Positions 32,343-50,676 of a stretch of DNA of 64,000 nt are shown here, in pieces. The notes under the pieces were generated by a model. That model saw nothing but the letters and a program-made list of their open reading frames with translations, had not been told where the DNA came from and did no database searches. This stretch comes from Sediminicola sp. YIK13 (GTDB lineage Bacteria > Bacteroidota > Bacteroidia > Flavobacteriales > Flavobacteriaceae), in NCBI RefSeq assembly GCF_001430825.1, contig NZ_CP010535.1, forward strand, positions 476,501-540,500, in the 5' to 3' direction. Positions within the stretch are counted from its first letter, which is position 1. Each line of letters opens with the position of its first letter. The translations under genes were made by a program, and so were the position numbers.

Positions 32343-32776
32343 AACTTACCTAGTATCACCTATTTAGGTTCAGTACTGTTTAAAGTCCTAGATATGTTTT
32401 GCGAATAAATAACTCAAAATATAATTCGGAGGATTTATATGATTTTTCAAATGAACAAGGATTTAATCTACGTAAAGCAACAACGAAATAATTATAGGCG
32501 ATAGGTTGCAATATTAAGGGGAAGTCATATGAATTTTATCAATAAGAGCAGACAAATTAAGTTTTGATGCCCTGAAAATAAGCAATGAAACTTCATTTTA
32601 TCCACATAAAGTACTTAAAGCTAAAGTGAAAATAAGCCTTAAGAAAAGAGATGATTAATTGAAAGAAAATTCTTAAAAAGTCCTACACCGAGTATTATTA
32701 CATTTCATAGTATTTTATTTGAACCACATCCAATAGGCAGTAATTTCACCTATTAATTATCCCAAATTTTACGGTA
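32343..32776. other. 434-bp gene-free stretch between the two barrel genes
   Basis: No convincing gene. A 21-codon frame, ATG 32439 to TAG 32504, is preceded by GGAGG and encodes MNKDLIYVKQQRNNYRR at its core. It is too short to support and may be chance. No terminator with a T-run was found after the 32342 stop. Confidence 0.5.
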
Positions 32777-33946
32777 ATGAAAAATTTTCACTTTAATTTA
32801 TTTGTCGCGTTTTCCCTTGTTGTAACCCTAGTTTCCGCTCAGGAAAGTATGGAATTGACCGCTAAGGACAGTATAGTTAAAAGTTCATGGGTTGTAGGGC
32901 TAGGTATTAATATAGTAGACGATACATCTTCGCCATATGGTGGCAATTTATTGGATATAAAAGATAGCTGGAACACAGTGCCTTACCCTTCTTCTGTAAG
33001 TATAGCAAGAAATTTCAGTAACGGATTAGGCCTAAAAGCTGTTGGTTCCTACAATAAATATAAGGTTGGAAAACTGATTGATGGTGCAATCAATATGGCC
33101 GAAAGGGATTACTATGCCATTGATGGGATGGTAAGCTATGATCTAAATAAATTATTTGGTGAAACAGGCTGGTTTGATCCATTTCTTCAAGCTGGTGCAG
33201 GTTATAGTTCTATAGGGGATATAGGCAGAACAACTGGTAATGCTGGTTTTGGGTTTAATACCTGGTTCAGTGATACTTGGGGACTTAATTTTAATACCAT
33301 GGGAAAATGGGGTTTAGAAGAAGGGTCTACAAAACAAGTACAACATTCCGCTGGGGTAGTATATCGCTTTGGGGTTGAAAAAGCATTGTCCAAAAAAGGA
33401 ATGGAGCATTTGGCTTCAATTGAGGCAATGAAAAAAGAACAACAACGAGTTCAAGATTCAACGGATGCGGCTGACAGGGCTAAGGAATTGGCCAAACGTA
33501 TGGCAGAGGAACAGGAGGCTGCCAGACTTGCCGCAGCAGAAAAGACTAGGATAGAGGCTGAAAACAAAAGAAGGGCACAAATAGAAAATGATATTAAAAA
33601 TCTAGGTAAGATTTACTTTGCTTTCAATTCAAGTACATTAAACACCGAATCTAAGGCAACATTGACCCAATTGGCGACATTAATGGATGCCACGCCATCA
33701 ATAACTTTGGAAGTGGCCTCATATACGGATAGCAGGGGGCCTGCCAATTACAACCTTGGGCTATCGGAAAGAAGGGTGAAGTCGACCATAGATTATTTGT
33801 TGGGTCAGGGTCTTTCGTCTGAAAGACTGATTCCAAAAGCCTATGGAGAGACCAATTTGGTCAACGAATGTGATGATAATACGCCTTGTTCTGCTGCCAA
33901 ACACAGATTGAATAGAAGGTCTGAATTTTTGGTAATTCGATTTTAA
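32777..33946 (+). CDS. OmpA-family outer-membrane protein with barrel and peptidoglycan-binding domain
   Basis: The 389-residue protein has a signal peptide ending LVSA, then a barrel domain (about 25-205) opening 'SSWVVGLGINIVDDTSS' and containing 'DSWNTVPYPSSVSIA' and 'SYDLNKLFGETGWFDPF'. These segments align with the neighbouring protein at 31269. An A/E/R-rich helical stretch (about 215-275) leads to an OmpA C-terminal domain: 'IYFAFNSSTLN', 'ITLEVASYTDSRGPANYN', 'LSERRVKSTIDYL' and 'RLNRRSEFLVI', with the aspartate and arginine that hold diaminopimelate. It links the outer membrane to the wall. Confidence 0.93.
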   Translation: MKNFHFNLFVAFSLVVTLVSAQESMELTAKDSIVKSSWVVGLGINIVDDTSSPYGGNLLDIKDSWNTVPYPSSVSIARNFSNGLGLKAVGSYNKYKVGKLIDGAINMAERDYYAIDGMVSYDLNKLFGETGWFDPFLQAGAGYSSIGDIGRTTGNAGFGFNTWFSDTWGLNFNTMGKWGLEEGSTKQVQHSAGVVYRFGVEKALSKKGMEHLASIEAMKKEQQRVQDSTDAADRAKELAKRMAEEQEAARLAAAEKTRIEAENKRRAQIENDIKNLGKIYFAFNSSTLNTESKATLTQLATLMDATPSITLEVASYTDSRGPANYNLGLSERRVKSTIDYLLGQGLSSERLIPKAYGETNLVNECDDNTPCSAAKHRLNRRSEFLVIRF

Positions 33947-34028: not shown

Positions 34029-35714
34029 ATGATAATACTTGGCCTTAACTACTATTTCCACGATTCTACAGCGTGTATTGTCAAAGATGGAAAACTTGTA
34101 GCTGCTATTGAAGAAGAACGTTTAAATAGGGATAAGCATACACAGGCGTTTCCTGAGCTTGCTGTTAAAAGATGTTTAAAGTTAGCAGGATTAACTTTCA
34201 ATGATATTGATCATATAGCAGTGTCTATAAAGCCAACCACACATTGGTTTAAGAAGTTAATTTACGTTTTAATACATCTAAAGAGTTTTGTGCCCTTTAT
34301 GGGGCATCATGTAGTCAATTCATATGCCAAACAAAGGCGTTTCTGGATATGGTATAATAGGAATTGGAACAAAGACAAGGGACCTAAAGTCCACTTTATT
34401 GAACACCATCTTACACATGTTGCAGGTACTTTTTTTGTTTCTCCTTATAAGGAAGCAGCTCTTCTGGGTATAGATGGTTCTGGAGAATGGGCCACTACTT
34501 GGATAGGCTATGGTAAAGAAAATACCATTGAAAAATATGGTGAAAGCTTTTTCCCACATTCTTTTGGATCCTTTTATGAGGCCGTTACCGAGTTTTGTGG
34601 TTTCAAACCCAATTACGATGAGGGTAAAACTATGGGGCTTGCCCCGATGGGGAATCCGGAAACCTTCATTAAGCAAGTAAGGGATATTGTTAAGGTAACT
34701 CCAGAGGGGCAGGTAAGAATTGATTTGAGCTATTTTAACTATCAACATATCGTAGGAAAGAAATGTTCAAATAAATTCTATAAAACGTTTGGGCAACCAA
34801 GATTGTCGGATGGTCCATTTTTGCAATATCATATGGATGTTGCAGCTGCATTCCAAAGGGTGTTGGAAGAACGAGTATTGGAAATCTGTACTATTCTCCA
34901 TTCAAAAACAAAAGCTGACTATTTGGTGATTTCTGGGGGCGTTTCTTTAAACAGCGTTATGAACGGAAGGATTGTTAGAGAAAGTCCTTTCAAAGATGTC
35001 TATGTAATGCCAGCGGCCGGCGACAATGGGACGGCAATTGGTGCAGCGTATTATTTGTACAATGGCATATTTAAGAAAACTAGGAACTATGTACACGATA
35101 ATCCATATCTAAGTACCAGTTATACCAATGAGGAAATAAAGGCGGCCATTGATAGAGCCAAATTGAAGGCAGAATATGTAGAGGATATTGGGGAGCGAGC
35201 AGCACTATTGTTAGAACAAGGGAAAATAATAGGATGGTTCCAAGGGACCATGGAAATTGGACCAAGAGCATTGGGCAGTAGGAGTATTTTGGCGAACCCA
35301 GCCTTTCCACAGATGAAGGACAAGATAAATGCACAGGTAAAATTTAGGGAAGCGTATAGGCCTTTTGCTCCATCCGCCACATTGGAATCCTACAAGGAAT
35401 ATTTTGATCTTCAAGTAGAGGATCCTTTTATGCTCAAGGTATGTAATGTACTAAAAGAGAAGCAACATATTTTGCCAGCGATTACCCATGTGGATGGTAG
35501 TGCACGCTTGCAAACCGTTGATAAAAATATTCATCCTTTATATCATGATGTCATTACCAAGTTAGGTTTAAAGACAGGTGTACCGGTAGTATTGAACACT
35601 AGTTTTAATGTACAGGGGGAACCCGTGGTGGAATCTCCTTTTGATGCTTTGAGATGCTTTTATTCCAATGGACTAGATGCATTATGCATTGGGAACTATG
35701 TAATTGAGAAGTAA
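34029..35714 (+). CDS. Carbamoyltransferase, NodU/CmcH family
   Basis: The 561-residue protein has the N-terminal Kae1-like domain with 'ILGLNYYFHDSTACIVKDGK', 'IEHHLTHVAGTFFVSPY' (metal-binding histidines) and 'ALLGIDGSGEWATTW', then the C-terminal domain with 'EIGPRALGSRSILANP' and 'NTSFNVQGEPVVESP'. It transfers a carbamoyl group from carbamoyl phosphate, through carbamoyl-adenylate, to a hydroxyl. Position at the edge of the polysaccharide locus suggests the target is a sugar of the surface polymer or its precursor. A shared transcript with the membrane-protein gene 79 bp downstream is plausible. Confidence 0.92.
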   Translation: MIILGLNYYFHDSTACIVKDGKLVAAIEEERLNRDKHTQAFPELAVKRCLKLAGLTFNDIDHIAVSIKPTTHWFKKLIYVLIHLKSFVPFMGHHVVNSYAKQRRFWIWYNRNWNKDKGPKVHFIEHHLTHVAGTFFVSPYKEAALLGIDGSGEWATTWIGYGKENTIEKYGESFFPHSFGSFYEAVTEFCGFKPNYDEGKTMGLAPMGNPETFIKQVRDIVKVTPEGQVRIDLSYFNYQHIVGKKCSNKFYKTFGQPRLSDGPFLQYHMDVAAAFQRVLEERVLEICTILHSKTKADYLVISGGVSLNSVMNGRIVRESPFKDVYVMPAAGDNGTAIGAAYYLYNGIFKKTRNYVHDNPYLSTSYTNEEIKAAIDRAKLKAEYVEDIGERAALLLEQGKIIGWFQGTMEIGPRALGSRSILANPAFPQMKDKINAQVKFREAYRPFAPSATLESYKEYFDLQVEDPFMLKVCNVLKEKQHILPAITHVDGSARLQTVDKNIHPLYHDVITKLGLKTGVPVVLNTSFNVQGEPVVESPFDALRCFYSNGLDALCIGNYVIEK

Positions 35715-36633: not shown

Positions 36634-37776
36634 ATGAAAAAGGGAATGTCTGAAAATAAAAATAGTTTATCTATCCTTATACCAGATGGTGAATGGGTTG
36701 GTTTAGCAAGACAAGTAAAAGACTGTTTATCTATGGTCCCAGATATTAAAATATATCTAATGTCCAATGAAAAAAAAAATTCAATCCGATATTCGAGATT
36801 CGTCACCCGCTTCATTTTTTACCCAAAAACTAATAATGAAATAGAATGGATTTCAAATATTAACAATGAATTACTAGTCCATAAAATTGATTTAATTATA
36901 CCATTATGGGAAGATGGGATTAGGAGTTTAATAAAATATAAAGAATTACTTACAGATAGTTCGAAGTTGGTTATTTTACCGACTTTAGATATGTTTGATA
37001 TAGCTAATAATAAGGCATTACTAGTAAATCACTTGATATCTTATCGAATACCAGGACCTAGATCCGTATATCTTAAATTAAAGGAATTTAAGGAACATGA
37101 TGAATTTACTTACCCATTTTTGATGAAACCAATTGGAGGTGAAGGAGGAGGGAAAGGTATTGTTGAATTTAGGAGTAGGAACGATTTTAATAGTTATTTT
37201 CAAGAAAATTCTACGAGCACCCAGAATTACCTTTTTCAGGAATTTATAAAAGGATATGATATTGATTGTAGTGTACTTTGTAAAAACGGGATAATACTGG
37301 CTTATACTATACAGAAAGGTATGCTCTATAATAATAAAAAATATGCTCCACCAATAGGTCTGGAATTCATTCATAATAATCAATTATACGCCGTAGTGGA
37401 AAAACTCATGAAATCTCTGAATTGGTCTGGAATAGCACATATAGACCTTAGGTATGATGAAATAGTTGGTGATTTTAAGGTGATTGAGATTAATACAAGG
37501 TTTTGGGGTTCAACAAATGCATCATTGATAGCGGGAATAAATTTTCCTGAACTATTATGTCTAACTTCCTTAAATCTAGATTTTGAGGTTCCACATTATA
37601 GGCATATTAAATTTTTGAGTATCGATGGCCTTAAATGGATAATTAAAAGTAAAAATAGTAATATTCTAAATTTAAAATTTATTTACAATAATACCCCTTT
37701 AAAATACATGGCCAGGGATCCACTGCCGACTATAATGGGATGGTTATATAAAATTGAAAGTATAATTCATCTTTAA
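36634..37776 (+). CDS. ATP-grasp ligase
   Basis: The 380-residue protein has an N-terminal pre-ATP-grasp part ('IDLIIPLWEDGIRSL'). The ATP-grasp domain begins near 125: 'YPFLMKPIGGEGGGKGIVEF' holds the ATP lysine and glycine loop, 'LFQEFIKGYDIDCSVLCKNG' the hinge, and 'FKVIEINTRFWGSTNASLIA' the magnesium-binding E-x-N-x-R. Such enzymes join a carboxylate to an amine through an acyl phosphate. Here the likely acceptor is a uronic acid or a precursor of the polymer, but the substrate is inferred from context only. Base use is more AT-rich than in upstream genes. Confidence 0.88.
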   Translation: MKKGMSENKNSLSILIPDGEWVGLARQVKDCLSMVPDIKIYLMSNEKKNSIRYSRFVTRFIFYPKTNNEIEWISNINNELLVHKIDLIIPLWEDGIRSLIKYKELLTDSSKLVILPTLDMFDIANNKALLVNHLISYRIPGPRSVYLKLKEFKEHDEFTYPFLMKPIGGEGGGKGIVEFRSRNDFNSYFQENSTSTQNYLFQEFIKGYDIDCSVLCKNGIILAYTIQKGMLYNNKKYAPPIGLEFIHNNQLYAVVEKLMKSLNWSGIAHIDLRYDEIVGDFKVIEINTRFWGSTNASLIAGINFPELLCLTSLNLDFEVPHYRHIKFLSIDGLKWIIKSKNSNILNLKFIYNNTPLKYMARDPLPTIMGWLYKIESIIHL

Positions 37777-37861: not shown

Positions 37862-39037
37862 CTAATTTTTCTGAAAAACAACCTTTTGAGTATCCTTCTG
37901 GCTTTTTATTAGATAAGATTCATTTTTCTTGATTTCATATACCTTTACCTTTGATATATGCTCCTTTTGGGTGTATAAAAAGTCATAAACAGATTTTTTT
38001 AGAAAGGCAAAAGAAGAGTCATTTATAAAATCAATAGGTGGTGTTTCTAAGCTAAATTCTAAACTATCCGTGGCTGGAATCATCTCATATTCAAAATCAA
38101 CAGTTACACTTGTCTTGCTAAAAAGGGATTTTATTTTATGATATTGTTTATTTAAACCTATGGCCAGAAGATAATTAATGAGCCATGTTCTAAATGAAAT
38201 AAAATGTAACGCTAAGAGTGCGAGCAAGGATTTCTTTTTGTAAAATACGTGATGTTCAAAATCATAGGTATGGTTGCACCATTTTAATTTATAGTCGAAG
38301 GCCCCAAATCCCATATCTAGTATTTCATAATCATTGGAGATACACCATTCCAATAGTTTGTGCACGGCTATGTTCCCAAGGCCAAATTTGGCATAATCAA
38401 TGTTGTAAGAAGGAATTGCCAGGCATATAATTTTTTCGAAATGGTAACTTAAGGATATTTGTATAGGATTTTTTCCGTCATATATAACATATAAAGAAGC
38501 CTTCTTTTGGTTAATCAATGAGAAAACACTCTTATAATAATGATCCCAATGGTGTAGAGCCATAGTTTGATCATTACGCTGGTTGAACCTTCTTTTGAGC
38601 ATGGTGTGCAAGGCGTTCATTAAGAATTCATATTCTTCACCTGTAATTTGCCCATAGAAGAGTTTATAACGTACATCAAAGGAGGTTTCCAATCCTTTTA
38701 TTCTTCTTCTTAAAGATGTTCTCAAATTAGGCTTAAAATTTGCTTGTATATAGCTATCTATATCCTTTAAGTTATCGGTGTTTATGCAGAAACCTTTTAC
38801 TCTAAATAATTTTTTTATCTCAATACCATCTTTAATGTTGAATTTTGGGATAAAATAGGAAGGGAATAATTCTAACAATAAGACTTCAGTGGTATTCTCA
38901 GGCCCATCAGGGCTTAAGACAGACAGGTCTACCACTTCATGGTTTAAGTACCAAATTTCTTTATAAACATTTGAAATTTTGTTTTTTTCGAAAAATGTAA
39001 AATAAAAATTCTTTTTACTTATAATTTTGGATACCAT
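37862..39037 (-). CDS. Acyltransferase-like protein (GNAT/BioF2-like), tandem paralog 1
   Basis: The 391-residue protein carries a BioF2/FemAB-like GNAT core at about 120-270: 'ASLYVIYDGKNPIQISLSYH', 'PSYNIDYAKFGLGNIAVHKL', 'LEWCISNDYEILDMGFG' and 'KWCNHTYDFEHHVFY'. The C-terminal ~60 residues ('FAFLKKSVYDFLYTQKEH') are shared with the next two genes. Family members transfer acyl or aminoacyl groups in exopolysaccharide or cell-wall synthesis. The donor is not known. It is the last of three paralogs on the minus strand and converges with the ATP-grasp gene across 85 bp. Confidence 0.82.
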   Translation of the reverse strand: MVSKIISKKNFYFTFFEKNKISNVYKEIWYLNHEVVDLSVLSPDGPENTTEVLLLELFPSYFIPKFNIKDGIEIKKLFRVKGFCINTDNLKDIDSYIQANFKPNLRTSLRRRIKGLETSFDVRYKLFYGQITGEEYEFLMNALHTMLKRRFNQRNDQTMALHHWDHYYKSVFSLINQKKASLYVIYDGKNPIQISLSYHFEKIICLAIPSYNIDYAKFGLGNIAVHKLLEWCISNDYEILDMGFGAFDYKLKWCNHTYDFEHHVFYKKKSLLALLALHFISFRTWLINYLLAIGLNKQYHKIKSLFSKTSVTVDFEYEMIPATDSLEFSLETPPIDFINDSSFAFLKKSVYDFLYTQKEHISKVKVYEIKKNESYLIKSQKDTQKVVFQKN

Positions 39038-39129
39038 CGTGTTTAAATTCAGTGATCACTAAAAGTATTTACATTCTCTAATTGATAATATATAGGATTT
39101 TCTGAAGTAATATTTTGAATAAAAAAATA

Positions 39130-40317
39130 TCAGTTTTTAATTAGAATTTGTTGCATGCTGTTCTTTCCTTTTATTAAATATGAATTGGGGTTTTGTGTAA
39201 TCTTGAATATGGAGGTATTACTCTTGTGCTCTACAGTAGCATATAAAAAATCGTACAGTACTCCTTTAAGGAACCGGTAGGTCACGTTTTCTAAATCTAC
39301 CTTTTCAACATCTCCTAAGCTTTCCATGTTGGTAATTGGAGTTTTTTCATAGATTAAATCATTTCTATTATTGGTTTCTTTTAGCCTGGAAATAGAAATA
39401 CTGTCCTTAACACGTTTAATAAGTACATTAACTTTTTTAGCTTTTAAATATTCCTTTAGAGTTAATTTGTACACATGGAATGTCGCTATTATGGGTGTGA
39501 ACAAGACATTTTTATTGTAGATGACTTGATATTTAAATTGATAAATATGGTTACACCATCTTCGTTTAAATTCCAAATCACCGTATCCCAATTCTAGAAA
39601 CTCAAATTGGTCTAGTAGGCACCATTCTACCAATTTGATCATTTCTACGTGTCCAACCCCAAATTTATAATAGTCGATATCATAGGAGGATATGGCACTA
39701 AAAACTATCTTATCCATATGATAATTTAAAGAGATATCAATAGGCTTCTTATCATCATAAATTATAAATAATGATGCTTCTTTACGGTTAATTTGATCAA
39801 AGGTATTATCAAGAATAATGTTCCATTCTCTCAATTTCTTATGCTCATCATTGCGCTGGGCAAACCTTCTAACCAGGAATTCCTTTAAGGTGGACATTAA
39901 AAAATTATATTCCTCCTTGGAGATTCTGCCAAAAAATGTTTTATAATTGATGTTGAAACAAGATTCCAGTCGGGTAAGACTCCGCTTAACAATCTTATGG
40001 TTGGATTTAAATTGGGATTTTAGATAACTGTCTATATTGATCACATCCTTCATACGGATGGCATATCCAAGATTGTTCTGATAATATGTTTTTTGGATAT
40101 ACTGATTTTCCTTTTTTAGGAAAGTATTCAAATATTCAGGGATTAAAGCCACTATATATAGTTGGTGCTTTTCTTGTCCATGCTTTACTTCGGCATCAGC
40201 CTCATAAAGGGTTTTGCCATTATCTGCGTATGCTATTTTTTGATAGATATCGGGTATTTCTCTTTTTTCAAAGAGGGTCATAAAAAAATCAGTTTTAAAT
40301 TTTTCTTTTAAATCCAT
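39130..40317 (-). CDS. Acyltransferase-like protein (GNAT/BioF2-like), tandem paralog 2
   Basis: 395 residues from the ATG at 40317; a GTG one codon upstream is possible. The core reads 'ASLFIIYDDKKPIDISLNYH', 'SSYDIDYYKFGVGHVEMIKL', 'VEWCLLDQFEFLELGYGD' and 'RWCNHIYQFKYQVIY', with the terminal block 'YRFLKGVLYDFLYATVEH'. By eye it is the closest relative of paralog 1, sharing the spacing of the whole core and the 'QRNDxxxxLxxW' segment before it. It lies 92 bp upstream of paralog 1 in the direction of transcription. Confidence 0.82.
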   Translation of the reverse strand: MDLKEKFKTDFFMTLFEKREIPDIYQKIAYADNGKTLYEADAEVKHGQEKHQLYIVALIPEYLNTFLKKENQYIQKTYYQNNLGYAIRMKDVINIDSYLKSQFKSNHKIVKRSLTRLESCFNINYKTFFGRISKEEYNFLMSTLKEFLVRRFAQRNDEHKKLREWNIILDNTFDQINRKEASLFIIYDDKKPIDISLNYHMDKIVFSAISSYDIDYYKFGVGHVEMIKLVEWCLLDQFEFLELGYGDLEFKRRWCNHIYQFKYQVIYNKNVLFTPIIATFHVYKLTLKEYLKAKKVNVLIKRVKDSISISRLKETNNRNDLIYEKTPITNMESLGDVEKVDLENVTYRFLKGVLYDFLYATVEHKSNTSIFKITQNPNSYLIKGKNSMQQILIKN

Positions 40318-40438
40318 CACAAAAATTTATTAGAATAATTTGATTTTAGATTTCTATTTTTACCTTATTTATTTGCATTTCTATAGCTTGAGGAAGATTC
40401 TTGCTTTTTCTCCAACAAGTATACTTAATAAAGCCAGT

Positions 40439-41704
40439 TTATTTTGAACGTGTTATGGAAGTGATTGTTGCTTTTCGATTGACTGTTTTACCTTTAATGA
40501 TATATTGTAAATAGTCATTTTTAACCTGTTGTACTTTAATGTGTTTCAGTTGTTCATTCGTAAGGTACAAAAAATCAAAGACTAATGTGGTTAAAAAGGT
40601 ATATGGGGGCTTCTTGAAATCAATATCAACTAATTCCAGCTGGTTCAACTCCTGTTGTATCTCGGAGAACTGATAAGTTGGTTTTGTGGGAACTTCAGCC
40701 TTATTCTTTTCTAATAGGAACCTTAGCTTATGAAGTTTTTCGTTTACATTTTTATCGCGCAGCTTTTGCTTTAAGGAGAAAAACGCAAATATGCACCAAG
40801 AAATAATCTTCGCCTTAAGTAAATTAGAATCGTGATAAACGTGATATTCGAAATGGTATTCTTCATTGGCCCATCTTTTCTTGTAATCGAAATAGCCCTT
40901 GGAGAAATCAAAGACTTTTATGTTATGCTCCAAACTCCACTCTATTAGTTTCATTATGGTTACAGAGCCCAGATGAAATTTCTCGTAATCAATATCAAAT
41001 ACGGTAATGGCATCAAAAAGAATAGTTTCAGAGAAATAACAAAGGGTAACTCCAATAGGAGTAATTCCTTCATAGATAACAAAAAGGCTCGCTTTCTTTT
41101 CAAGGATCAAAGGATAGGCTACCTCATGATAGAAATTCCATTCTTTCGTATCCAGGTTGTTATTGGTAATCCCTTTGTCTAAAAATCGTTTTTCCAATAA
41201 AATTTTAAAATGATCAAAAACACTGTCATACTTCTCTTTTGAAATATCCCCAAGGAACATTTTATAAGAGATTTCAAATGACTCTTCCAGTCTTTTTTTG
41301 TATTTGTTGAGTTTATATCTGGAACTCTTACTAAAACTCGAAGACATATAATGCCCAAGGTCGGTATACTTGTCCAAATGAATCAAAAAACCCGGATATT
41401 GCTTAATTTTTCGTAATTGTAACGAACCATTTAATGTAGTAAAGTCTAAGTCAAAAAAAGTAGGAACATCATAAATCAACAACACTTTATTCTTTAAATC
41501 CACCTGTTCATTTTGATGGATAGAATATGAAACTCCTTTGGTATGTGTCTGTCCTGTGTTAACAAATACTAATGGAAACCAGCTTTTTACAAACGAAATT
41601 CCTTCTATGCTTTTAAATACAATAGGCGAACTGTTCTTGCCAAAATGCCTAAGCCATATATTTGAAAAGGTCTTCGAAGTAAAAGGATTGGAAGTAATGC
41701 GCAC
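40439..41704 (-). CDS. Acyltransferase-like protein (GNAT/BioF2-like), tandem paralog 3
   Basis: The 421-residue protein starts at GTG 41704 (MRITSNPFTSKTF). The core reads 'ASLFVIYEGITPIGVTLCYF', 'TVFDIDYEKFHLGSVTIMKL', 'IEWSLEHNIKVFDFSKGY' and 'RWANEEYHFEYHVYH'. The WC of the other two paralogs becomes WS, and WCN becomes WAN. The terminal 'YTFLTTLVFDFLYLTNEQ' is retained. It is the most diverged of the three and has an N-terminal extension. It follows the FemAB-like gene by 6 bp, so it is probably cotranscribed with it. Confidence 0.82.
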   Translation of the reverse strand: MRITSNPFTSKTFSNIWLRHFGKNSSPIVFKSIEGISFVKSWFPLVFVNTGQTHTKGVSYSIHQNEQVDLKNKVLLIYDVPTFFDLDFTTLNGSLQLRKIKQYPGFLIHLDKYTDLGHYMSSSFSKSSRYKLNKYKKRLEESFEISYKMFLGDISKEKYDSVFDHFKILLEKRFLDKGITNNNLDTKEWNFYHEVAYPLILEKKASLFVIYEGITPIGVTLCYFSETILFDAITVFDIDYEKFHLGSVTIMKLIEWSLEHNIKVFDFSKGYFDYKKRWANEEYHFEYHVYHDSNLLKAKIISWCIFAFFSLKQKLRDKNVNEKLHKLRFLLEKNKAEVPTKPTYQFSEIQQELNQLELVDIDFKKPPYTFLTTLVFDFLYLTNEQLKHIKVQQVKNDYLQYIIKGKTVNRKATITSITRSK

Positions 41705-41710
41705 AACAGT

Positions 41711-42775
41711 TTAATTTAGATCTATAGATCGGTATAATGGAAAATAATTGGTTTCAGAATCGATGTTTTTTTCCAAAGACAATTGATCATAAACTTCTTG
41801 ATTTACGATGACCTTCCAAAGGTTAAAATCCTTAAAATCCTTAGAAAATCCCGATTTAAAATGAAATAATGAATCTTCTTTGTTGCCTACGCCACCTCCA
41901 AGGTTAAAAAAGGTGCTATTTTCTTGGGATGCAATAATCCGCATCTCATCTATCAAAAGTTTAACGGGATAGTGATCTAACTTATCTTCATCCGTACCAG
42001 ACAAATGGTATTGTACAATCTGGTTGGTGGTTATAAACATGGCACCCGCTATAATGGTATTGGATTCTCTATCTGTAGCCAGTAATAATCGGGTATTGAA
42101 ATCACTTGAATTTAAAAGATCAAAAAAATATTTTTCTTCAAAGAAGTAATACTTTTTGGCATTCACCCTTTCCATATTCTTATAATACAAATCTATGTAG
42201 GCAAGGACTTCTTCCTTGGTTTCTGCCAATTTAATATTGCATAGTCTTCTTGCTTTATTTATATGGGTTCTTAGTCTTTTGTGATAGGCCTTTAGTTGTT
42301 CATCAAGCTGTAGGGTTAGATCTATATTGACAACCTTGCTAAGAGTGGAAATCTGTCCTAAATGTTGAATACAATGATGTTGGTTAAAAATAAATGGGTT
42401 TAATCTAGAAAATATGGAAATAATATTCTGAGCGGATAAATATCTTTTAAATTCTGTAATAAAATTTGAATTATTAAAATGTATATCAATGTTTTTAGAT
42501 ATAGGACCAGGGTAGCCATATACAGAAGTTAAATCATAGTAGTAACTATCATCAATTCGACGCAATAAAAATGGAATTGCAATAATTTTATTATTTTCGG
42601 AATACTTTATTAAAATAGCTTCATCTTCTTCATTTTTTGTTATATGATGATAATCATAAGTGTGGTATAAATCATAAGAATCCAAACTATCAAGAAGTGA
42701 ATTCCAATCCTCCTTATTATTTATTATTTCAATCATTGAGTGTCTTTTAGACTGATATAATTTAGTATTTATCAT
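41711..42775 (-). CDS. FemAB/GNAT-like protein
   Basis: The 354-residue protein has tandem GNAT-like halves: 'YDLTSVYGYPGPISKN' in the first, then 'RLRTHINKARRLCNIKLAE', 'ESNTIIAGAMFITTNQIVQYHLSGT' (in part) and 'FFNLGGGVGNKEDSLFHFKSGF'. This last pattern is the usual end of FemAB-related proteins in exopolysaccharide clusters, where an acyl or aminoacyl group is added. It lacks the C-terminal DFLY block of the neighbouring three genes. Substrate unknown. It sits between the PglD-like acetyltransferase and paralog 3. Confidence 0.83.
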   Translation of the reverse strand: MINTKLYQSKRHSMIEIINNKEDWNSLLDSLDSYDLYHTYDYHHITKNEEDEAILIKYSENNKIIAIPFLLRRIDDSYYYDLTSVYGYPGPISKNIDIHFNNSNFITEFKRYLSAQNIISIFSRLNPFIFNQHHCIQHLGQISTLSKVVNIDLTLQLDEQLKAYHKRLRTHINKARRLCNIKLAETKEEVLAYIDLYYKNMERVNAKKYYFFEEKYFFDLLNSSDFNTRLLLATDRESNTIIAGAMFITTNQIVQYHLSGTDEDKLDHYPVKLLIDEMRIIASQENSTFFNLGGGVGNKEDSLFHFKSGFSKDFKDFNLWKVIVNQEVYDQLSLEKNIDSETNYFPLYRSIDLN

Positions 42776-42889: not shown

Positions 42890-43540
42890 TTATTTCTTTA
42901 AGGTTTTCGATCTGCGTTTAATTATACGTCCAGGGTTACCAACAACAGTACAATAATCAGGAACATCTCTTATTATCACAGTGCCTGCACCAATAACACA
43001 CCACTTGCCAACTTTAACGTTAGGTATTACAACAGCCGCAGATCCGATCTGAGTGCCTTCCATGATTTCAACGTTTCCACATAAAGTGACATTTGGAGAA
43101 ATATGTACAAAGTCGCCAATAATGTTATCGTGATCAACACTAGCACATGTGTTTATAATTACATGTTTCCCAATTTTAGTATTTGGTTGAATTACGGCTC
43201 CGGCAAAAACCACGGTTCCTTCATCTATAATAGCATTACTAGCAATAATAGCTGAACTATGAAATGCTTGCCCAAACTCACTACTTAACATTTGTGCAAT
43301 TTCTGATCTAATTAGGTTATTTCCTATGGCTATAATGATAGGGGGCCCATTATGAGGAAATTGATCCATATTTTGTCTTGCTCCATGTGTGATTTCAGAA
43401 TTGTATCTATCATTGGTTTCAATATTATCATCGAAAATTTTAGAAATTTCAAAACCATTTAGAAGCAAAACTTCCTTTACAACTTTAGAATGTCCACCTG
43501 CTCCATAAATCCTGATATGTTTAGATGTTTTCTTATTCAT
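42890..43540 (-). CDS. Sugar O/N-acetyltransferase, PglD/NeuD-like
   Basis: The 216-residue protein has a Rossmann-like N-terminal domain ('IRIYGAGGHSKVVKEVLLLNG') that binds the UDP-sugar in PglD. The C-terminal left-handed beta-helix has hexapeptide repeats (about 95-200: 'VVFAGAVIQPNTKIGKHVII', 'NTCASVDHDNIIGDFVHIS', 'IGAGTVIIRDVPDYC'). The histidine in 'SVDHDN' matches the catalytic base of this family. Beside a PglC-like transferase, it probably acetylates the 4-amino group of a UDP-amino sugar to give a diacetamido sugar. Confidence 0.9.
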   Translation of the reverse strand: MNKKTSKHIRIYGAGGHSKVVKEVLLLNGFEISKIFDDNIETNDRYNSEITHGARQNMDQFPHNGPPIIIAIGNNLIRSEIAQMLSSEFGQAFHSSAIIASNAIIDEGTVVFAGAVIQPNTKIGKHVIINTCASVDHDNIIGDFVHISPNVTLCGNVEIMEGTQIGSAAVVIPNVKVGKWCVIGAGTVIIRDVPDYCTVVGNPGRIIKRRSKTLKK

Positions 43541-43620: not shown

Positions 43621-44226
43621 TTAATTGTTACCTATAAACTCAGCCATGTTAAGATTGTCTGAACTGTTAACACCTTCCTTAATTAGAACTTTTTTAATGG
43701 TTAGTAGGAGTATTTTAAGGTCTAAAAAAAAGCTAATATGAGTAACATAATAAATATCTAAGTTAAATTTTTGTTCCCATGATATAGCATTTCTACCATT
43801 TACTTGTGCCCAACCAGTTATTCCAGGTTTTAAATCGTGTCTCCGAAGTTGATATTCGTTATAGAGCGGTAAATACTTAGTTAATAATGGCCTTGGACCA
43901 ATTAAACTCATATCTCCTTTTAAAACGTTTATTAGTTGAGGTAACTCATCTAAGGAATACTTTCTAATAATAATCCCCAATTTTGTAATTCTCTTTTCAT
44001 ATGGCAATAAATTACCATCACTATCCATGTTGTCATTCATGGTTTTAAACTTAATAATCTTAAACAATTTACCATTTTTACCGGGCCTCTGCTGTAAAAA
44101 AAATGGTTTTCCATTGTTATAGAATAATAAATACAATGTGATAATAGCTGTTATTGGGAATGTTAGAACAAGTCCTGTTACTGAGGATACAAGATCGAAA
44201 AATCGTTTAATATATTTATAATTCAT
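43621..44226 (-). CDS. Initiating sugar-1-phosphate transferase, PglC-like
   Basis: The 201-residue protein is a monotopic phosphoglycosyl transferase. It has one re-entrant N-terminal helix (residues 8-32), then 'FFLQQRPGKNGKLFKIIKFK', 'KYSLDELPQLINVLKGDMSL', 'IGPRPLLTKYLPLY' and 'RRHDLKPGITGWAQVNGR'. The short form, without extra N-terminal membrane helices, matches PglC rather than WcaJ/WbaP. It places the first sugar phosphate on undecaprenyl phosphate at the cytoplasmic face. Together with the PglD, PglE and PglF homologues in this window the likely first sugar is a bacillosamine-type residue. Confidence 0.92.
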   Translation of the reverse strand: MNYKYIKRFFDLVSSVTGLVLTFPITAIITLYLLFYNNGKPFFLQQRPGKNGKLFKIIKFKTMNDNMDSDGNLLPYEKRITKLGIIIRKYSLDELPQLINVLKGDMSLIGPRPLLTKYLPLYNEYQLRRHDLKPGITGWAQVNGRNAISWEQKFNLDIYYVTHISFFLDLKILLLTIKKVLIKEGVNSSDNLNMAEFIGNN

Positions 44227-44461: not shown

Positions 44462-45643
44462 TTATAATGTACTAGCAATTAATTTTGCATACTGATCACA
44501 TAATATGGATTTATCGAAAGTATTTTCTGCTAATTTTCTAGAATTTACACCCATTATATCACACAATTCAGGATTATTTTTCAAATTAATAATTTGATTG
44601 GATAATTCAATAGGAATCTCAGGGTTAACATAAACTCCGCAATTGTATTTTTCTACCATATCCTTTGTCCATCCAGGGGAGTTGACAATTATTGGCTTCC
44701 CTGCTGATAATGAATCAAATAGTTTGTTAGGTGAATTAGTTGCTAGAATAGGTAAATTAGAAAATGTCACTAAGGAAATATCGCAAAAATTGACAATTTC
44801 TGACAATCGTTCCATTGGTTCACCTTTAAAAAATCTAATATTTGAAATTTCTTCATCTACACATCTTTTTTCAAGAATAGGTTTCATAGATCCAAATCCG
44901 AAAAATAAAAACTCAATATCTTTTCGATTTGACAATAATTTTGCTGCATCTAAAATATAATTCATCCCATTGGCAATACCCATTGCACCAAAATATATCA
45001 CCTTAAAGGTGTTTGGATCTAATTTGAACTCCTCAATAAGTTGCTCATTTTTTTTATGTGGCCAAAATTTATCAATTTTGGACATATTAGGAATCATTGA
45101 TACTTTTTCATCACCTACGCCAGTTGAAATTACTCCTTCATACATTCCAGGTGATAGTGCAACAATATGGTAAGCATTCCGATATATGGATCTTTCAAAC
45201 CATTTGGTTAACTTAATGATAATTTTATTTTTGAATGCCCCCATTTGTATGGGAACCTCTGGCCATAAATCCCTTACCTCAAAAAAGTACGGTATTTTTT
45301 TTATTTTTTTACCTACAAGTGCAGGAAAGCCAACTGTTAATGGTGTTGAAGTGGCTAGTATTAAATCAAATTTATTGCTTTTTAGAACAAATAAAGTGGT
45401 GGCAAGCATGAATTTAATGAAAGCCAAAAGGCGATGTAATATGCCCATATGACTACTATATGGAATTTTCAGATAAACAACATGTATACCATCAATATTT
45501 ACTTTTTTACTCTTCTTATTTGTTGTAGTTAACATGGTTACATCATGCCCATGTTTGATTAACTCTTTGCTAATCCAATAGGATCGAGTCCCCCCAGGTT
45601 GTTCAGGAGTTGTAAAATATTGATGAATATATAAGATTTTCAT
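44462..45643 (-). CDS. Glycosyltransferase family 4 (WbuB-like)
   Basis: The 393-residue GT4 enzyme has N-terminal 'YIHQYFTTPEQPGGTRSYW', typical of the WbuB branch, and 'YFFEVRDLWPEVPIQMGAFK'. The C-terminal nucleotide-sugar domain has 'VIYFGAMGIANGMNYILDAA' and 'NSPNKLFDSLSAGKPIIVNS', with the EX7E-like region altered to D. WbuB-type enzymes often add the second sugar, an amino sugar. It is separated from the PglC-like gene by a 235-bp AT-rich gap in which I see no clear signal. Confidence 0.88.
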   Translation of the reverse strand: MKILYIHQYFTTPEQPGGTRSYWISKELIKHGHDVTMLTTTNKKSKKVNIDGIHVVYLKIPYSSHMGILHRLLAFIKFMLATTLFVLKSNKFDLILATSTPLTVGFPALVGKKIKKIPYFFEVRDLWPEVPIQMGAFKNKIIIKLTKWFERSIYRNAYHIVALSPGMYEGVISTGVGDEKVSMIPNMSKIDKFWPHKKNEQLIEEFKLDPNTFKVIYFGAMGIANGMNYILDAAKLLSNRKDIEFLFFGFGSMKPILEKRCVDEEISNIRFFKGEPMERLSEIVNFCDISLVTFSNLPILATNSPNKLFDSLSAGKPIIVNSPGWTKDMVEKYNCGVYVNPEIPIELSNQIINLKNNPELCDIMGVNSRKLAENTFDKSILCDQYAKLIASTL

Positions 45644-45699
45644 GGGATAAATGACTAAATGGGCTTTTTGTAAATAATTTTAAACGTGTAATTTGGCTC

Positions 45700-46830
45700 T
45701 TATTCTTGAACTATTGATTTGTAAATTGTATAATATTTTTTAGTAGTATTATTCCAATCAAATATAGAAAAATCAACTTTCTCTAAATGATATTCATTGT
45801 AATTATTAATAATTTTTAATAATCCAATTCCTATACTGTTAATGGAGTGGGGATCAACCGCTTCTCCAACTTTTGCTTTAAATAAGCCATCTATCCCTTG
45901 ACCTTTTGAATATATTACTGGTAGTCCTTGTGAAAGTGCTTCTATGTAAACCAAACCAAAAGTTTCGCTATAAGAGGGCATTGCAAAAATATGGTTGGTC
46001 CAAAATATTTCCTTAAGTTCAGTTTTATCATATATGGGACCAATGAAATTTACAATGTGTGGATATTTATAAGAAAGAGTTTTAATTTCATTTTCTTCCT
46101 CCCCTTTTTTTCCTACAAGTGTAATTTGCAAGTCAGGTAGCTTCTTTTGTAACTCTATAACACTATAAACTAATTTTAAGACATTTTTATTCTTATCAAA
46201 CCTCCCAATATAAAGTATTTTGCTAGGATTGATAGACTTCTTTTTTTTAAGGTTTTCAATCCAAATTGAATCCAATCCATTGTATATAACTTCACATTTT
46301 GACCAGATATGTTTTTTTAAGTTTTTAATATAATAATGTTTCTTAAAATTTATTTCCAAAGAATCACTAATGAAAATAATCTTTTTAGCACTGTATAAGA
46401 TCTCCTTAGCTAAGGAGAAGAGATCTAATCGGTATTTTAGATAGCCGTTTAAATCGGTGCCTCTAACTGCTATTATATATGGAATATTGAATTCCTTATA
46501 AATTTTTAATGCCAGCGCACCATCAACAAATAGTGTGGTTGCGCAAATAAGATCGAAATTAGCAAGTTCAGTTTTTAATTTAAGGTCCTTATATAAGTGA
46601 GAAATTTTATCCCGGAATAAATACTTATGATATTTTTTTATGGGCTTTGATCCAATTATTTTGATGCTTGAATCTGGAAGCGAATATATATATTCATTTG
46701 AACCAAGTAATCTTATTGGGTAATATACCGTCTGTTGTATTTTTAATCCCTCTAAAGAACGATACAAGTTTCGGTGGACTTTACTTCCCAAAAAATCATT
46801 ACAAATATGAAGACAATTTAATTTATTCAT
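45700..46830 (-). CDS. Glycosyltransferase family 4
   Basis: The 376-residue GT-B enzyme has 'IAVRGTDLNGYLKYR' near residue 145, 'KILYIGRFDKNKNVLKLVYS' at the start of the C-terminal domain, and 'PSYSETFGLVYIEALSQGLP' with the EX7E motif. It would transfer one sugar of the repeat unit from a nucleotide sugar with retention. Donor and acceptor cannot be read. It lies 57 bp upstream of the WbuB-like gene and 77 bp after the third GT in the same direction. Confidence 0.9.
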   Translation of the reverse strand: MNKLNCLHICNDFLGSKVHRNLYRSLEGLKIQQTVYYPIRLLGSNEYIYSLPDSSIKIIGSKPIKKYHKYLFRDKISHLYKDLKLKTELANFDLICATTLFVDGALALKIYKEFNIPYIIAVRGTDLNGYLKYRLDLFSLAKEILYSAKKIIFISDSLEINFKKHYYIKNLKKHIWSKCEVIYNGLDSIWIENLKKKKSINPSKILYIGRFDKNKNVLKLVYSVIELQKKLPDLQITLVGKKGEEENEIKTLSYKYPHIVNFIGPIYDKTELKEIFWTNHIFAMPSYSETFGLVYIEALSQGLPVIYSKGQGIDGLFKAKVGEAVDPHSINSIGIGLLKIINNYNEYHLEKVDFSIFDWNNTTKKYYTIYKSIVQE

Positions 46831-46906
46831 TGGTAATTAGTACTATTAAATATTACTTTTAATTTATCAAATTAAAATGAGGTTATAAACGTAAAATTGT
46901 GTTTAT

Positions 46907-48004
46907 TTAATTTTTTAGGGAATTAAACAAGTTAATCCATTTTGTTGTTATTGAATGAATATTAAAATCATTAATAAACTCTTTGTTATTATTTGAAAAT
47001 GAGATTCGTTTATCTTCATTGATAATTAATTCATCTATTTTGTTAGCCATTTCTATAATACGAAATGGTCTGATTAAAAATCCATTAATATTGTTTCTGA
47101 TAATTTCACTCGGACCAGTAGGGATATCAAAACTTATTAATGGTAAATTGTTAGCAAGTCCTTCAATTAAGCTCATTGGAAATCCTTCATATTTAGATGT
47201 CATTACCATAAAAGAATATTGATTATAAATAGAATACAAATCATTTGATTGTCCTTTAAGAACTAACTTATCAATTAATCCATTTTGTTCAATTTTTTTT
47301 TGAATTTTATGTTCATTTTCGCCTGAACCATAAATATGCCATACATAATCTTTATGCTTTTCTAGAACAATTTTGGCCACATCAACTAGCAATTCAAAAT
47401 TTTTTTGATCTGTCAAGCGACCTACACTTATAATTTTTTTTGCATTTAACTTATAGGGTAAATGTGAGTTTACTGCTCTTGGGTCAATTGGATTGTATAT
47501 CTGCTTTATATTACTAGCGAAGGTCCCATGTTTGTAATTTTTTAAATCTGTTTTGGTTAAGCTTACTATTGCATTGGCAAAGATCGCTGTAAATTGTTCA
47601 TTTACCTCCTTAAATTTATTGCCAGTTTTAGCTTTAAAACTTGAATGAGACCAATATACATGTTTAGTTTTTTTAAATAAGGTGCTAATTACTCCTAAAG
47701 GACCAACAAGCTGCCCGCAGCTGATCAATATTTCAATATTATTTTTGTTAATGATTTTTCTAAGGCCAAAAGCAGCCTTAGGTAGTCCTTTTTTCATTGG
47801 AATACTTTCATCTAATAGGTCATGATATATTATCTTATTATTCCATTTATAACCATATTCTTCTTTTTTTATGTAGCTAATAATGTGTATATTATATAAT
47901 TCGGTTTTTTGTAGCACATTGGTTATAATTGAAACTACCCTGGAGATTCCTCCTCTTTCAGAAATTCTGGTCAATAAAAAGGCTATATTTTTTTTATTAT
48001 TCAT
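46907..48004 (-). CDS. Glycosyltransferase family 4
   Basis: The 365-residue GT4 enzyme is of the type that carries 'TRISERGGISRVVSIITNVL' at the N-terminus and 'TSKYEGFPMSLIEGLANNLP' followed by 'DIPTGPSEII' at the C-terminus, matching capsular and PglJ/PglH-like transferases. The EX7E motif lies in EGFPMSLIE. It starts 5 bp after the flippase stop. It probably adds one sugar of the repeat unit at the cytoplasmic face. Confidence 0.9.
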   Translation of the reverse strand: MNNKKNIAFLLTRISERGGISRVVSIITNVLQKTELYNIHIISYIKKEEYGYKWNNKIIYHDLLDESIPMKKGLPKAAFGLRKIINKNNIEILISCGQLVGPLGVISTLFKKTKHVYWSHSSFKAKTGNKFKEVNEQFTAIFANAIVSLTKTDLKNYKHGTFASNIKQIYNPIDPRAVNSHLPYKLNAKKIISVGRLTDQKNFELLVDVAKIVLEKHKDYVWHIYGSGENEHKIQKKIEQNGLIDKLVLKGQSNDLYSIYNQYSFMVMTSKYEGFPMSLIEGLANNLPLISFDIPTGPSEIIRNNINGFLIRPFRIIEMANKIDELIINEDKRISFSNNNKEFINDFNIHSITTKWINLFNSLKN

Positions 48005-48008
48005 TTTT

Positions 48009-49457
48009 TTATTTGAATAGTGATTTTTTAATAATATTAGAGATTACTTTTTTTATTTCGATATACTCATTTACATTCATTATTTCATTTGTGATTATAA
48101 AAATAAATGATCCTACTGCTAATTGAATTAATAACATAAAAAAATTATTCAAATCAAATAGGGTTACAATAAACATAGATGAAGCAGTTAATAATGAAAT
48201 AATTAAAAAGGGAAAAATATCCTTCATTTGATCCTTGATTGAATAGTCAAGAAACTTTTTAGTATAGAAACTGTTTATAAAATATTCGATGAGAGAAAAG
48301 ACGACTAAACCAAACAACATTGCTTTGATACTTATTAATACTGTAATATAAATAAGGGGTATTAAAATTATTTTTTTAGCAATTTCGAGCTTAAGATTTA
48401 AATTAGAATATCCTTTAATCAATAATAGATTTAAATGTAAGATTTGCAAGGGATATAACATACCAGGGATGCACAATAATTGTAAATAAATTATTGATGA
48501 AGACCATTTCTCTCCAATTAATAATAATACCATTGGTTGGGCGATTGCTGCTATACCTAGCATAATTGTAAAATTTAAAAATATACTAAATCTTAAAAAT
48601 CTCGTAAATGTTGTTTTTAATTTAATATTATCATTTTGTAAAGAAGAAAGAATGGGAAAACTGATTCTTCTTAGTGCTGCTGTAATATTTCCAGAGACAG
48701 GAGATTGAAATTGTTCTGCACGAGTATAATACCCTAATGAAATTGGGGAGAAAAACTTTCCAATGAGAACATAATAAATATTCTTATAAATGGTATTGAT
48801 TAAATTTGCCATTAAAAGCTTATACCCATAATTAAACAGTTCCTTAAAGCTATTTTTCGAAAATTCTAGCGATGGGCGCCAATTATTATTGAGCCATAAT
48901 AATGTTGAATTTAAAAAGGGCCTTAAAATAGAAAGTATAACTAGACTCCATATCCCATATCCCCTATATGCCATAAATATTGCAATCAGACCAGAACTAA
49001 TAGAAGCTGTTATTGAAATAATTGCTTGAGTTTTAAAGTTGAGATTTCTGGATAATATACTTGTTTGAACTAAAGTAGTGGCATTAATTATTAATATAAT
49101 TCCAGAATATTTAAGAATTTCAGCCAATATAGGTGTCTCGAAAAATTTGGATAATACTTCAGCTGAAAAGAATAGGATTAAATATAAAGTTGTAGAAACA
49201 AGTAAATTCGTAAAGAAAACCGTATTATAATCAGTATTGGTTACATTTATTTTTCGTATTAACGCACTACTGAATCCACCTTCGATAATAGAATTGGTTA
49301 CGGCTATAAAGGCAGTTATTAATCCAATAATTCCAAAATCTTGAGGACTTAAAATACGCGCCAATATGATTCCTACTAAAAATATAGAACCTTGATTGAA
49401 TATCATTTCAAATAGAGTCCAACTAAAACTGTTAATTGCTTTTAATTTCAGTGACAT
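48009..49457 (-). CDS. wzx: Wzx-type oligosaccharide flippase (MOP superfamily)
   Basis: The 482-residue protein has about 12-14 hydrophobic segments. The N-terminal block 'SWTLFEMIFNQGSIFLVGII' followed by 'LSPQDFGIIGLITAFIAVTN' is the usual opening of polysaccharide transporters. 'EGGFSSALIRKINVTNTDYN' and 'GYYTRAEQFQSPVSGNI' are typical of the WzxC/lipopolysaccharide branch. It would flip the undecaprenyl-linked repeat unit across the inner membrane. It follows the polymerase gene by 28 bp. Confidence 0.92.
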   Translation of the reverse strand: MSLKLKAINSFSWTLFEMIFNQGSIFLVGIILARILSPQDFGIIGLITAFIAVTNSIIEGGFSSALIRKINVTNTDYNTVFFTNLLVSTTLYLILFFSAEVLSKFFETPILAEILKYSGIILIINATTLVQTSILSRNLNFKTQAIISITASISSGLIAIFMAYRGYGIWSLVILSILRPFLNSTLLWLNNNWRPSLEFSKNSFKELFNYGYKLLMANLINTIYKNIYYVLIGKFFSPISLGYYTRAEQFQSPVSGNITAALRRISFPILSSLQNDNIKLKTTFTRFLRFSIFLNFTIMLGIAAIAQPMVLLLIGEKWSSSIIYLQLLCIPGMLYPLQILHLNLLLIKGYSNLNLKLEIAKKIILIPLIYITVLISIKAMLFGLVVFSLIEYFINSFYTKKFLDYSIKDQMKDIFPFLIISLLTASSMFIVTLFDLNNFFMLLIQLAVGSFIFIITNEIMNVNEYIEIKKVISNIIKKSLFK

Positions 49458-49485: not shown

Positions 49486-50676
49486 TTATTTACTTTTATG
49501 AATTTCCAATTTATTTTGGATACTAATGATCATAAAAAAATACATCATAGAAAAAGTAAACTTATAAAAGGGGTAGATATTGTTGAACAAGTAAAAACAG
49601 ATGAAAAATAATAGATTTATTTTTAAAACCTTGTCGTTAGGATTTAGCATTATCAAGCGCCAACATTTTATCAAAGGAATACCAAAAAGAAATAACAGTA
49701 GTATTCCTCCAAAGATACCTTGTTCGGCCAAAATTTCAACATATGAATTGTGTGAAAACTGGCCAATACCATTATGATAAATCAATTGTCCTAGCCCAAC
49801 TCCAAGAAAGGGATTATTTCCAAATACTTTCAAACTTTCATAAATCAAAACCTCTCTAGAATCAACCTTAGTTCCTGTGACTTCTATTCTATTTTTGATT
49901 CTTGAATTTTCATAAATTTTGATAAACTGAATGCCAATAAAAATGAATATTGAGAAAATTAAAATCCCCCTGAATATTTTTTTTAATTTGTTGCTGGGAT
50001 TTATTTTATTTATAAAAAACCAATAGCATAAATTTATAATTATTATTATAAAAATACCAGATCGAGATTGAGTTGCAAAAGAAATAATTATAAAAAGTAA
50101 TGGAAGTGATATTAATAAAATCATCCATAATGTAGATTTATATTTCTGATATAAATATATTAATGAGAAGTTGGCAAAAAAACTAAAGTATGAATATGCA
50201 TTGGCATTCAACAAAAAGCGATCTCGGTAATCTACTTTAGATGCAAAATTAGAAAAATTAAAATTCCCTTCATAGTACATAATTGCTATCAATAATAGTA
50301 TAGATATTACATAACCAATGTGAAAATATTTGCTATAGTCTCCGTTTTTATTTAATGCTACTGGAATATATGCAGCTAATACAGCACCAAGCATACCATT
50401 AAATCCATTTATTAATGCTTCATAATTCACATAGTAGAATACGGAAAATAGGCTTGAAATAAATATTAGCAACAAAAGTATAAATTCAGTGTTGTTCTTA
50501 TAAAAAGTCTTTATATCATAAAAGAACGCAAGTAGTGTAAGTGATGGGATGAGTATGGAAGTAACTAAATTTTGTCTTTTTAAATACGGGCCTAATGCAA
50601 TTAGAAAAATAATTGTGCCAATTACATATAAACCAACAAAAAGGTTATTATCCTTCGATTTAAAATTTGATTGCAT
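49486..50676 (-). CDS. wzy: Wzy-type polysaccharide polymerase / O-antigen ligase family
   Basis: The 396-residue protein has about ten membrane segments. Conserved elements are 'SFATQSRSGIFIIIIINLCY' (the loop arginine region), 'DSREVLIYESLKVFGNNPFL' and 'GVGLGQLIYHNG' with 'FSHNSYVEILAEQGIFGGIL'. Together these are the Wzy_C/O-antigen ligase pattern, with the histidine before NSY. It lies directly before wzx and in a locus with PglC-like, Wza and Wzc genes, so a polymerase role is more likely than ligase. It is the first gene of this minus-strand segment, after a terminator. Confidence 0.87.
   Translation of the reverse strand: MQSNFKSKDNNLFVGLYVIGTIIFLIALGPYLKRQNLVTSILIPSLTLLAFFYDIKTFYKNNTEFILLLLIFISSLFSVFYYVNYEALINGFNGMLGAVLAAYIPVALNKNGDYSKYFHIGYVISILLLIAIMYYEGNFNFSNFASKVDYRDRFLLNANAYSYFSFFANFSLIYLYQKYKSTLWMILLISLPLLFIIISFATQSRSGIFIIIIINLCYWFFINKINPSNKLKKIFRGILIFSIFIFIGIQFIKIYENSRIKNRIEVTGTKVDSREVLIYESLKVFGNNPFLGVGLGQLIYHNGIGQFSHNSYVEILAEQGIFGGILLLFLFGIPLIKCWRLIMLNPNDKVLKINLLFFICFYLFNNIYPFYKFTFSMMYFFMIISIQNKLEIHKSK

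Follow-up and report, generated by a model that had tools for sequence, protein, structure and literature searches.

Ordered arrays of predicted FemX-like double-GNAT transferases with an unmatched C-terminal domain in putative surface-glycan loci of Flavobacteriaceae

Sediminicola sp. YIK13 (Flavobacteriaceae) carries three related genes in a row, here named F1, F2 and F3 in order of transcription, within a 64,000-nucleotide stretch of contig NZ_CP010535.1 (positions 476,501 to 540,500; hereafter the window, whose numbering is used throughout). An original prediction had described them as tandem acyltransferase-like paralogs with a private C-terminal domain. Here we report that they belong to an uncharacterised subfamily that combines an unmatched domain with ordered gene arrays, and that is neither an artefact nor fully ordinary. 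In an evenly balanced judgement, the three proteins represent a Flavobacteriaceae subfamily of FemX-like double-GNAT (GCN5-related N-acetyltransferase) transferases that would add aminoacyl or similar acyl residues to a lipid-linked glycan. This reading draws on the predicted fold, a missing coenzyme A (CoA) motif, an invariant lysine and the genomic context. The array and its parts are as follows.

40439..41704, minus strand: F1, first array gene, 421 aa, GTG start (open reading frame (ORF) call, PF13480)
39130..40320, minus strand: F2, second array gene, 396 aa (ORF call, PF13480, tree)
37862..39037, minus strand: F3, third array gene, 391 aa (ORF call, PF13480, structure model, tree)
38288..38290, minus strand: Lys250 codon of F3, invariant in 228/228 members
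38096..38233, minus strand: basic segment, F3 residues 269-314 (net charge across the family)
40442..40693, minus strand: C-terminal domain of F1 (profile)
39133..39378, minus strand: C-terminal domain of F2 (profile)
37865..38107, minus strand: C-terminal domain of F3 (profile; modelled alone)

All three ORFs match PF13480 (Acetyltransf_6; 46.4, 27.9 and 42.5 bits against a curated cut-off of 22), and the predicted trio of related genes is real. F2 and F1 are 37% and 31% identical to F3, respectively, and the gaps inside the array measure 92 and 118 bases. Because all three genes lie on the minus strand, F1, which had been counted as the third gene, is transcribed first.

Relatives were collected by scanning named genomes with one pattern, derived from an alignment in which first-position genes were abundant, and the best 80 of 175 relatives were retained as loci, with flanks of at most 10 kb and mechanically called ORFs. 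Of these loci, 79 are labelled Flavobacteriaceae and the remaining one is a Muricauda record without a family label. The resulting 245 family ORFs come from 94 sources and include some counted twice, since L042 and L037/L038 derive from genomes also present as L068 and L108; once fragments and all rows from L042 and L038 had been excluded, 228 rows remained for the trees.

The model of F3 is a double GNAT (predicted local distance difference test (pLDDT) 93.8, predicted template-modelling score (pTM) 0.92). Its closest structural match was FemX of Staphylococcus aureus (6snr; Z 17.0, root-mean-square deviation (rmsd) 4.0, 228 residues aligned), covering model residues 10-278, and comparable scores were obtained with FemX of Weissella viridescens (7z5y; Z 16.3, rmsd 3.6, 213 aligned) and the streptothricin-type enzyme Sba18 (9wqy; Z 16.3, rmsd 3.7, 208 aligned). 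Across the comparison FemX entries scored Z 15.8-17.0 and MprF-type synthases together with FemA Z 12.2-14.8, and rows 1 to 16 consisted entirely of FemX/FemA, Sba18/Sbb17 and MprF-type synthases. Foldseek likewise placed FemX as the match of the F3 core. The structural alignments to FemX carry 5-10% identity. Among 109 aligned members, all match PF13480 at E ≤ 0.01, a model whose coverage stops short of the full core and which does not address the C-terminal domain or the arrays. At the same threshold 29 members hit ATE_C, the family of arginyl-tRNA-protein transferases (best E 1.2e-5; marginal for the window genes, at E 0.012 and 0.04), and 12 match FemAB_like (PF04339).

Canonical CoA-dependent GNATs bind pyrophosphate through a [QR]xxGx[GA] motif, from which some CoA-using GNATs deviate. 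This motif was found in the expected region of 2/228 members, both from one genome, and is missing in the other 226. Residues G221, G245 and K250 are invariant (228/228), and R150 is kept in 223/228. In the available part of one account, Lys305 of FemX and Lys329 of DhpH-C are described as catalytic (PMC12945691), and we propose K250 as their counterpart. The GNAT architecture expected by the original prediction was recovered in the model as a double-GNAT fold, which speaks for aminoacyl transfer of the FemX type more than for a canonical CoA-dependent GNAT. The cysteine replacements that had been singled out (WC to WS, WCN to WAN) are present, but the weight placed on them is unsupported: column 232 holds cysteine in 162/228 members, column 254 holds cysteine in 80/228 and serine in 88/228, and a functional switch was rejected because both columns vary across the family.

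The C-terminal block is shared by F1, F2 and F3 and absent from the neighbouring FemAB gene. A profile built from 105 rows, the three window genes among them, hit precisely the three window sites in the 3.57 Mb host genome (E ≤ 2e-20; next match E 0.32). It matched 204 of the 245 family ORFs at E < 1e-3, with nearly all 105 profile rows among these matches, and none of the 1,400 non-family ORFs at E ≤ 10 (1,645 ORFs from the window and the fetched loci), in agreement with the private character claimed for the block. At E ≤ 0.001 the profile matched 64 of 299 genomes drawn from Flavobacteriaceae, the genome studied here included, and there were matches in 9/296 drawn from the order and 5/395 from the phylum; the three draws overlap in genomes, and in the latter two every one among the matches listed belongs to the family of the window.

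Searches with this domain returned little. With residues 336-391 and their relatives, each Pfam family was matched by at most 1/50 members (best E 0.0099), and a PDB sequence search with the block gave a single match at E 1. Modelled alone, the domain of F3 adopts a beta-alpha-beta-beta-beta arrangement (pLDDT 85.5), and the whole-protein model contains the same elements. The isolated model reached a best E of 1.4 in Foldseek and, among the matches listed, a best Z of 4.0 in VIA-align (rmsd 4.1, 67 aligned). The modelled domain therefore appears to be without a convincing known fold match, and the initial failure to recognise it was borne out in the libraries searched. The domain is not universal in the family: 33/228 members lack it, a distribution that implies no fewer than 8 changes on the fast tree. 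Among arrays with three genes or more, one per genus, it is missing from 3/20 first, 7/20 second, 4/38 inner and 1/20 last genes. This pattern is consistent with an accessory part.

The genomic context appears to be that of a polymer pathway. Upstream and downstream of the array, the window contains the following genes.

41711..42775, minus strand: FemAB-family gene, directly upstream of the array (PF02388, 37.7 bits against a cut-off of 24)
42890..43540, minus strand: NeuD/PglD-type sugar acyltransferase
43621..44226, minus strand: bacterial sugar transferase, presumed initiator of a lipid-linked glycan (PF02397)
44462..48004, minus strand: three glycosyltransferases (PF00534)
48009..49457, minus strand: Wzx-type flippase (PF13440)
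49486..50676, minus strand: Wzy_C polymerase/ligase (PF04932)
36634..37776, plus strand: ATP-grasp ligase, convergent with the array

With its sugar transferase, glycosyltransferase, Wzx-type and Wzy_C genes, the region fits the serotype-like cassette that had been predicted and would be a Wzx/Wzy-type surface-glycan locus. Six bases separate F1 from the stop of the FemAB gene, whose product is only 17% identical to F3. The ATP-grasp ligase is a possible partner of the array in amide-bond chemistry. Iyer and colleagues reportedly predicted, in 2009, that exopolysaccharide clusters contain acetyltransferase-fold and ATP-grasp amide ligases.

Similar surroundings recur among the relatives. Counted without fragments, the 81 loci (window included) comprise 25 with a single family gene, 29 with two, 11 with three and 16 with four to eight, and the longest uninterrupted run comprises seven family genes. 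The median gap between successive family genes on the same strand is 17.5 bases (n = 132, with 21 gaps >1 kb). A FemAB gene is found in 73/81 loci and lies directly upstream of the array in 59/81; a sugar transferase is found in 54/81, an MBOAT gene in 49/81, an AlgX-like gene in 44/81 (three members of this cluster were scanned and one passes a Pfam cut-off) and a PylC-like ATP-grasp gene in 28/81. Absences of neighbours are soft because the flanks extend only 10 kb. The MBOAT and AlgX-like genes often stand as a pair behind the array, which suggests O-acylation of the same polymer; neither cluster has a member in the window. Other loci add formyltransferase, methyltransferase and Cupin_8 genes.

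Taken together, these results favour a model in which the sugar transferase and glycosyltransferases would build a lipid-linked repeat unit, which FemAB and the array paralogs would decorate with aminoacyl (or similar acyl) residues, each enzyme carrying out a single step. The donor would be aminoacyl-tRNA and the acceptor the glycan intermediate, and the decorated repeat unit would then be exported by Wzx/Wzy.

The paralogs are old. For 224/228 members the nearest match lies in a different locus, a figure somewhat flattered because single-copy loci cannot match themselves; the exceptions are two local pairs, in L112 and L039. The original prediction of a triplicated, diverging family stands as regards paralogy, divergence and the GNAT fold, but a recent triplication was rejected on these cross-locus matches, with which the likelihood tree agrees, since every paralog of the window clusters with genes from other genera. 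In the fast tree (228 rows), 55/59 first-position genes fall in one clade (support 0.94), together with one non-first gene and 23/30 single-copy genes; an SKG motif is present in 78/79 members of this clade, to which F1 belongs. In the likelihood tree (98 rows, 20 loci), 17/20 first genes occupy a 20-row clade with a Shimodaira-Hasegawa-like approximate likelihood ratio test (SH-aLRT) support of 99. Three of the 20 fall outside it and the label needs 5 changes; the first gene of L040 is not a true first because its contig begins inside the array. F2 groups with position-3 genes and F3 with position-4 genes of Croceivirga and Robiginitalea (SH-aLRT 99 each), and the window therefore resembles the four-gene array of these genera minus position 2.

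For the comparison of gene order each genus or record label was represented by a single locus, giving 31 loci, of which the 20 with at least three genes, falling into 35 clades, supplied the counts below; L036, L039 and L040 might share a genus with another locus. Ordered clade pairs were concordant in 158 cases and discordant in 2, one of the latter lying within L040 itself. Shuffling genes within loci gave a mean of 48 discordant pairs, and 32 when the first gene was held fixed; the observed 2 was never reached, in 2,000 shuffles of the former kind or with the first gene fixed. The clade cut-offs are arbitrary, and of the five tried, coarser ones yielded 5 to 8 discordant pairs; 0/2,000 shuffles reached the observed discordance at any of them. 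Gene order is far from random, and the comparison across flavobacteria that had been called for revealed old paralogs in 81 loci of 1-8 copies with a largely conserved order. Such ordered arrays suggest that a surface polymer may be decorated step by step, with the paralogs acting in sequence.

An alternative is that the arrays keep their order simply because whole cassettes are inherited, through descent and recombination, and that it has no functional meaning. Order is kept chiefly within a few array types (for example 0-3-1-1-1-8, 0-4-7-7-12-9 and 0-2-14-4), some clade pairs swap across types (such as 2/4, 2/5 and 0/9), and common descent of whole cassettes can explain what is seen. Against this, the same members recur in differing combinations across array types with their relative rank mostly kept, and the shuffles behind a fixed first gene never reached the observed value, although descent could still account for that. 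We judge inheritance slightly the more probable explanation of the order; it is compatible with either enzymatic account of the family.

The GNAT core is followed by a basic segment (residues 269-314) with a mean net charge of +8.4, reaching at least +5 in 215/228 members; residues 91-120 are almost equally basic per length. The maximum net charge per 46 residues averages 10.5 in the family against 8.9 after shuffling, compared with 7.5 against 7.0 for the FemABs of the same loci and 7.4/7.7, 8.6/8.4 and 7.2/7.4 (observed/shuffled) for three glycosyltransferase clusters. For FemX, a basic helix has been proposed to bind tRNA, according to the part of the source available (PMC12945691). The segment here could bind tRNA or acidic membrane, and together with the C-terminal domain it may have a docking or membrane-positioning role.

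A related possibility is that both parts serve membrane attachment or ligand binding rather than tRNA binding or paralog docking. Among the systems found, the closest characterised counterpart from a polysaccharide pathway is HfsK of Caulobacter, a GNAT-fold, FemX-like protein of holdfast synthesis whose C terminus is needed for activity and membrane localisation, as far as the available text describes it (PMC5362036). By eye, the basic segment in our alignment also has hydrophobic stretches. On the other hand, the 33/228 members without the C-terminal domain end at model positions 293-319, within or just after the basic segment, so the two parts are separable. HfsK also differs in that its extension has 25 residues, as against a folded domain of ~75 residues here; the portion of that paper available mentions no array and leaves the catalytic role of HfsK itself uncertain (PMC5362036). 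We regard a purely membrane or ligand role as somewhat doubtful, if a serious contender.

Several observations weigh against the FemX-like reading of the family. In the structural comparison ordinary GNATs appear from Z 13.5, with ATE1 (12.6) and L/F-transferase (12.2) among them, so that the fold alone leaves the donor unfixed. At E ≤ 0.01 none of the 109 members matches PF02388 (FemAB), and when profiles of the family and of the neighbouring FemABs were compared, the cores did not align. Dedicated tRNA genes were not found: the scan of 40 of the 80 loci gave two tRNAs (L051 and L052), and none lay in the window. AMP-binding genes occur in 13/81 loci and carrier-protein genes in 8/81, which makes acyl-ACP (acyl carrier protein) donors possible. 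Finally, the O-polysaccharide of a Cellulophaga strain is described without an aminoacyl residue in the available part of a review on marine polysaccharides (PMC3210612), a polymer that neither supports nor excludes the FemX-like reading.

Alternatively, the paralogs might be parallel decorators, each N- or O-acylating a different sugar or position from acyl-CoA or acyl-ACP, as serotype-modifying acyltransferases do, without forming a chain. The family-wide match to PF13480, whose members have mostly unknown donors, fits this view, as do the carrier-protein and AMP-binding genes, the NeuD-type gene of the window and the frequent MBOAT and AlgX-like neighbours. However, the near-complete absence of the CoA motif and the identity of the top 16 structural matches speak against it, and conserved order is left without a reason, unless descent supplies one; we consider this account unlikely. 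Less likely still, and rather improbable in our view, is the strongest form of stepwise decoration: a template-free assembly line in which FemAB and F1 to Fn, in gene order, each add one aminoacyl residue from a charged tRNA. The number of copies and their order would then encode how long the peptide on the surface glycan is and which sequence it has, and the C-terminal domain would dock consecutive enzymes or the glycan-assembly complex.

Among known systems, the FemABX proteins, whose FemX members from W. viridescens and S. aureus give F3 its best structural match, share the double-GNAT fold and, putatively, a lysine near the end of the core, and the arrays usually follow a FemAB gene. In S. 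aureus several FemABX paralogs act in one pathway. The family differs in lying in a glycan locus, whereas FemABX acts in peptidoglycan, in its extra C-terminal domain, in its runs of up to 7 genes and in lacking a Pfam FemAB match. The tRNA-dependent natural-product enzymes DhpH-C, VlmA, PacB, Orf11 and Sbb17/Sba18 are also close, with Sbb17/Sba18 structures among the top matches. DhpH-C and others are reported to have a double GNAT fold with, in DhpH-C, an essential lysine; their acceptors are natural products, they come from other loci, and the available portion of the source mentions no such C-terminal domain (PMC12945691). No description of arrays of this kind was found in the titles and abstract openings of the literature searched.

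Several gene fusions and groupings were observed around the arrays. A FAD/NAD(P)-binding domain (PF13454) precedes a FemAB-like domain in single proteins of 887-1236 aa at L035:3617-7327, L037:9192-11855 and L039:8370-11039, adjoining family genes in L037 and L039 and lying ~11 kb away in L035. At L041:772-2526 a PglD/NeuD acyltransferase is fused to FemAB (584 aa), the counterparts being two neighbouring genes in the window, and FemAB-cluster proteins of 576-588 aa occur in L075, L088, L112 and L126. A carrier protein (PF00550), an AMP-binding enzyme and a 364-aa protein without a Pfam match are grouped at L035:9320-12172, and at L042:9666-12098 the MBOAT and AlgX-like pair stands between two family genes. 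In the window, the glycan locus includes a 590-aa protein (50856-52628) without a Pfam match at E ≤ 0.001. A carbamoyltransferase (34029-35714; PF02543 and PF16861), with relatives in 7/81 loci, lies beside the locus. The window also has two adjoining related genes (31269-33946; 357 and 389 aa, one cluster), OmpA-like by eye only, with relatives in 26/81.

Two other possibilities were rejected. Relatives of the three genes were encoded in 0/167 candidate stretches of viral contigs, and a PHROGs search with the three window genes found nothing, which argues against a phage source. Of repeats that could serve inversion or recombination near the genes there were just short imperfect pairs, judged, without a control, to be chance in AT-rich DNA.

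On a modest reading, these results define an uncharacterised subfamily present in roughly a fifth of the genomes sampled from Flavobacteriaceae (64/299). If the FemX-like reading is true, flavobacteria would build variable peptide-like decorations on their surface polymers through dedicated rows of FemX-like genes. Their surface diversity would then be genetically readable and possibly relevant to phages, grazers and algal hosts, and the family would offer an accessory domain not yet described, along with paralogs from which to learn how FemX-like enzymes choose donor and acceptor.

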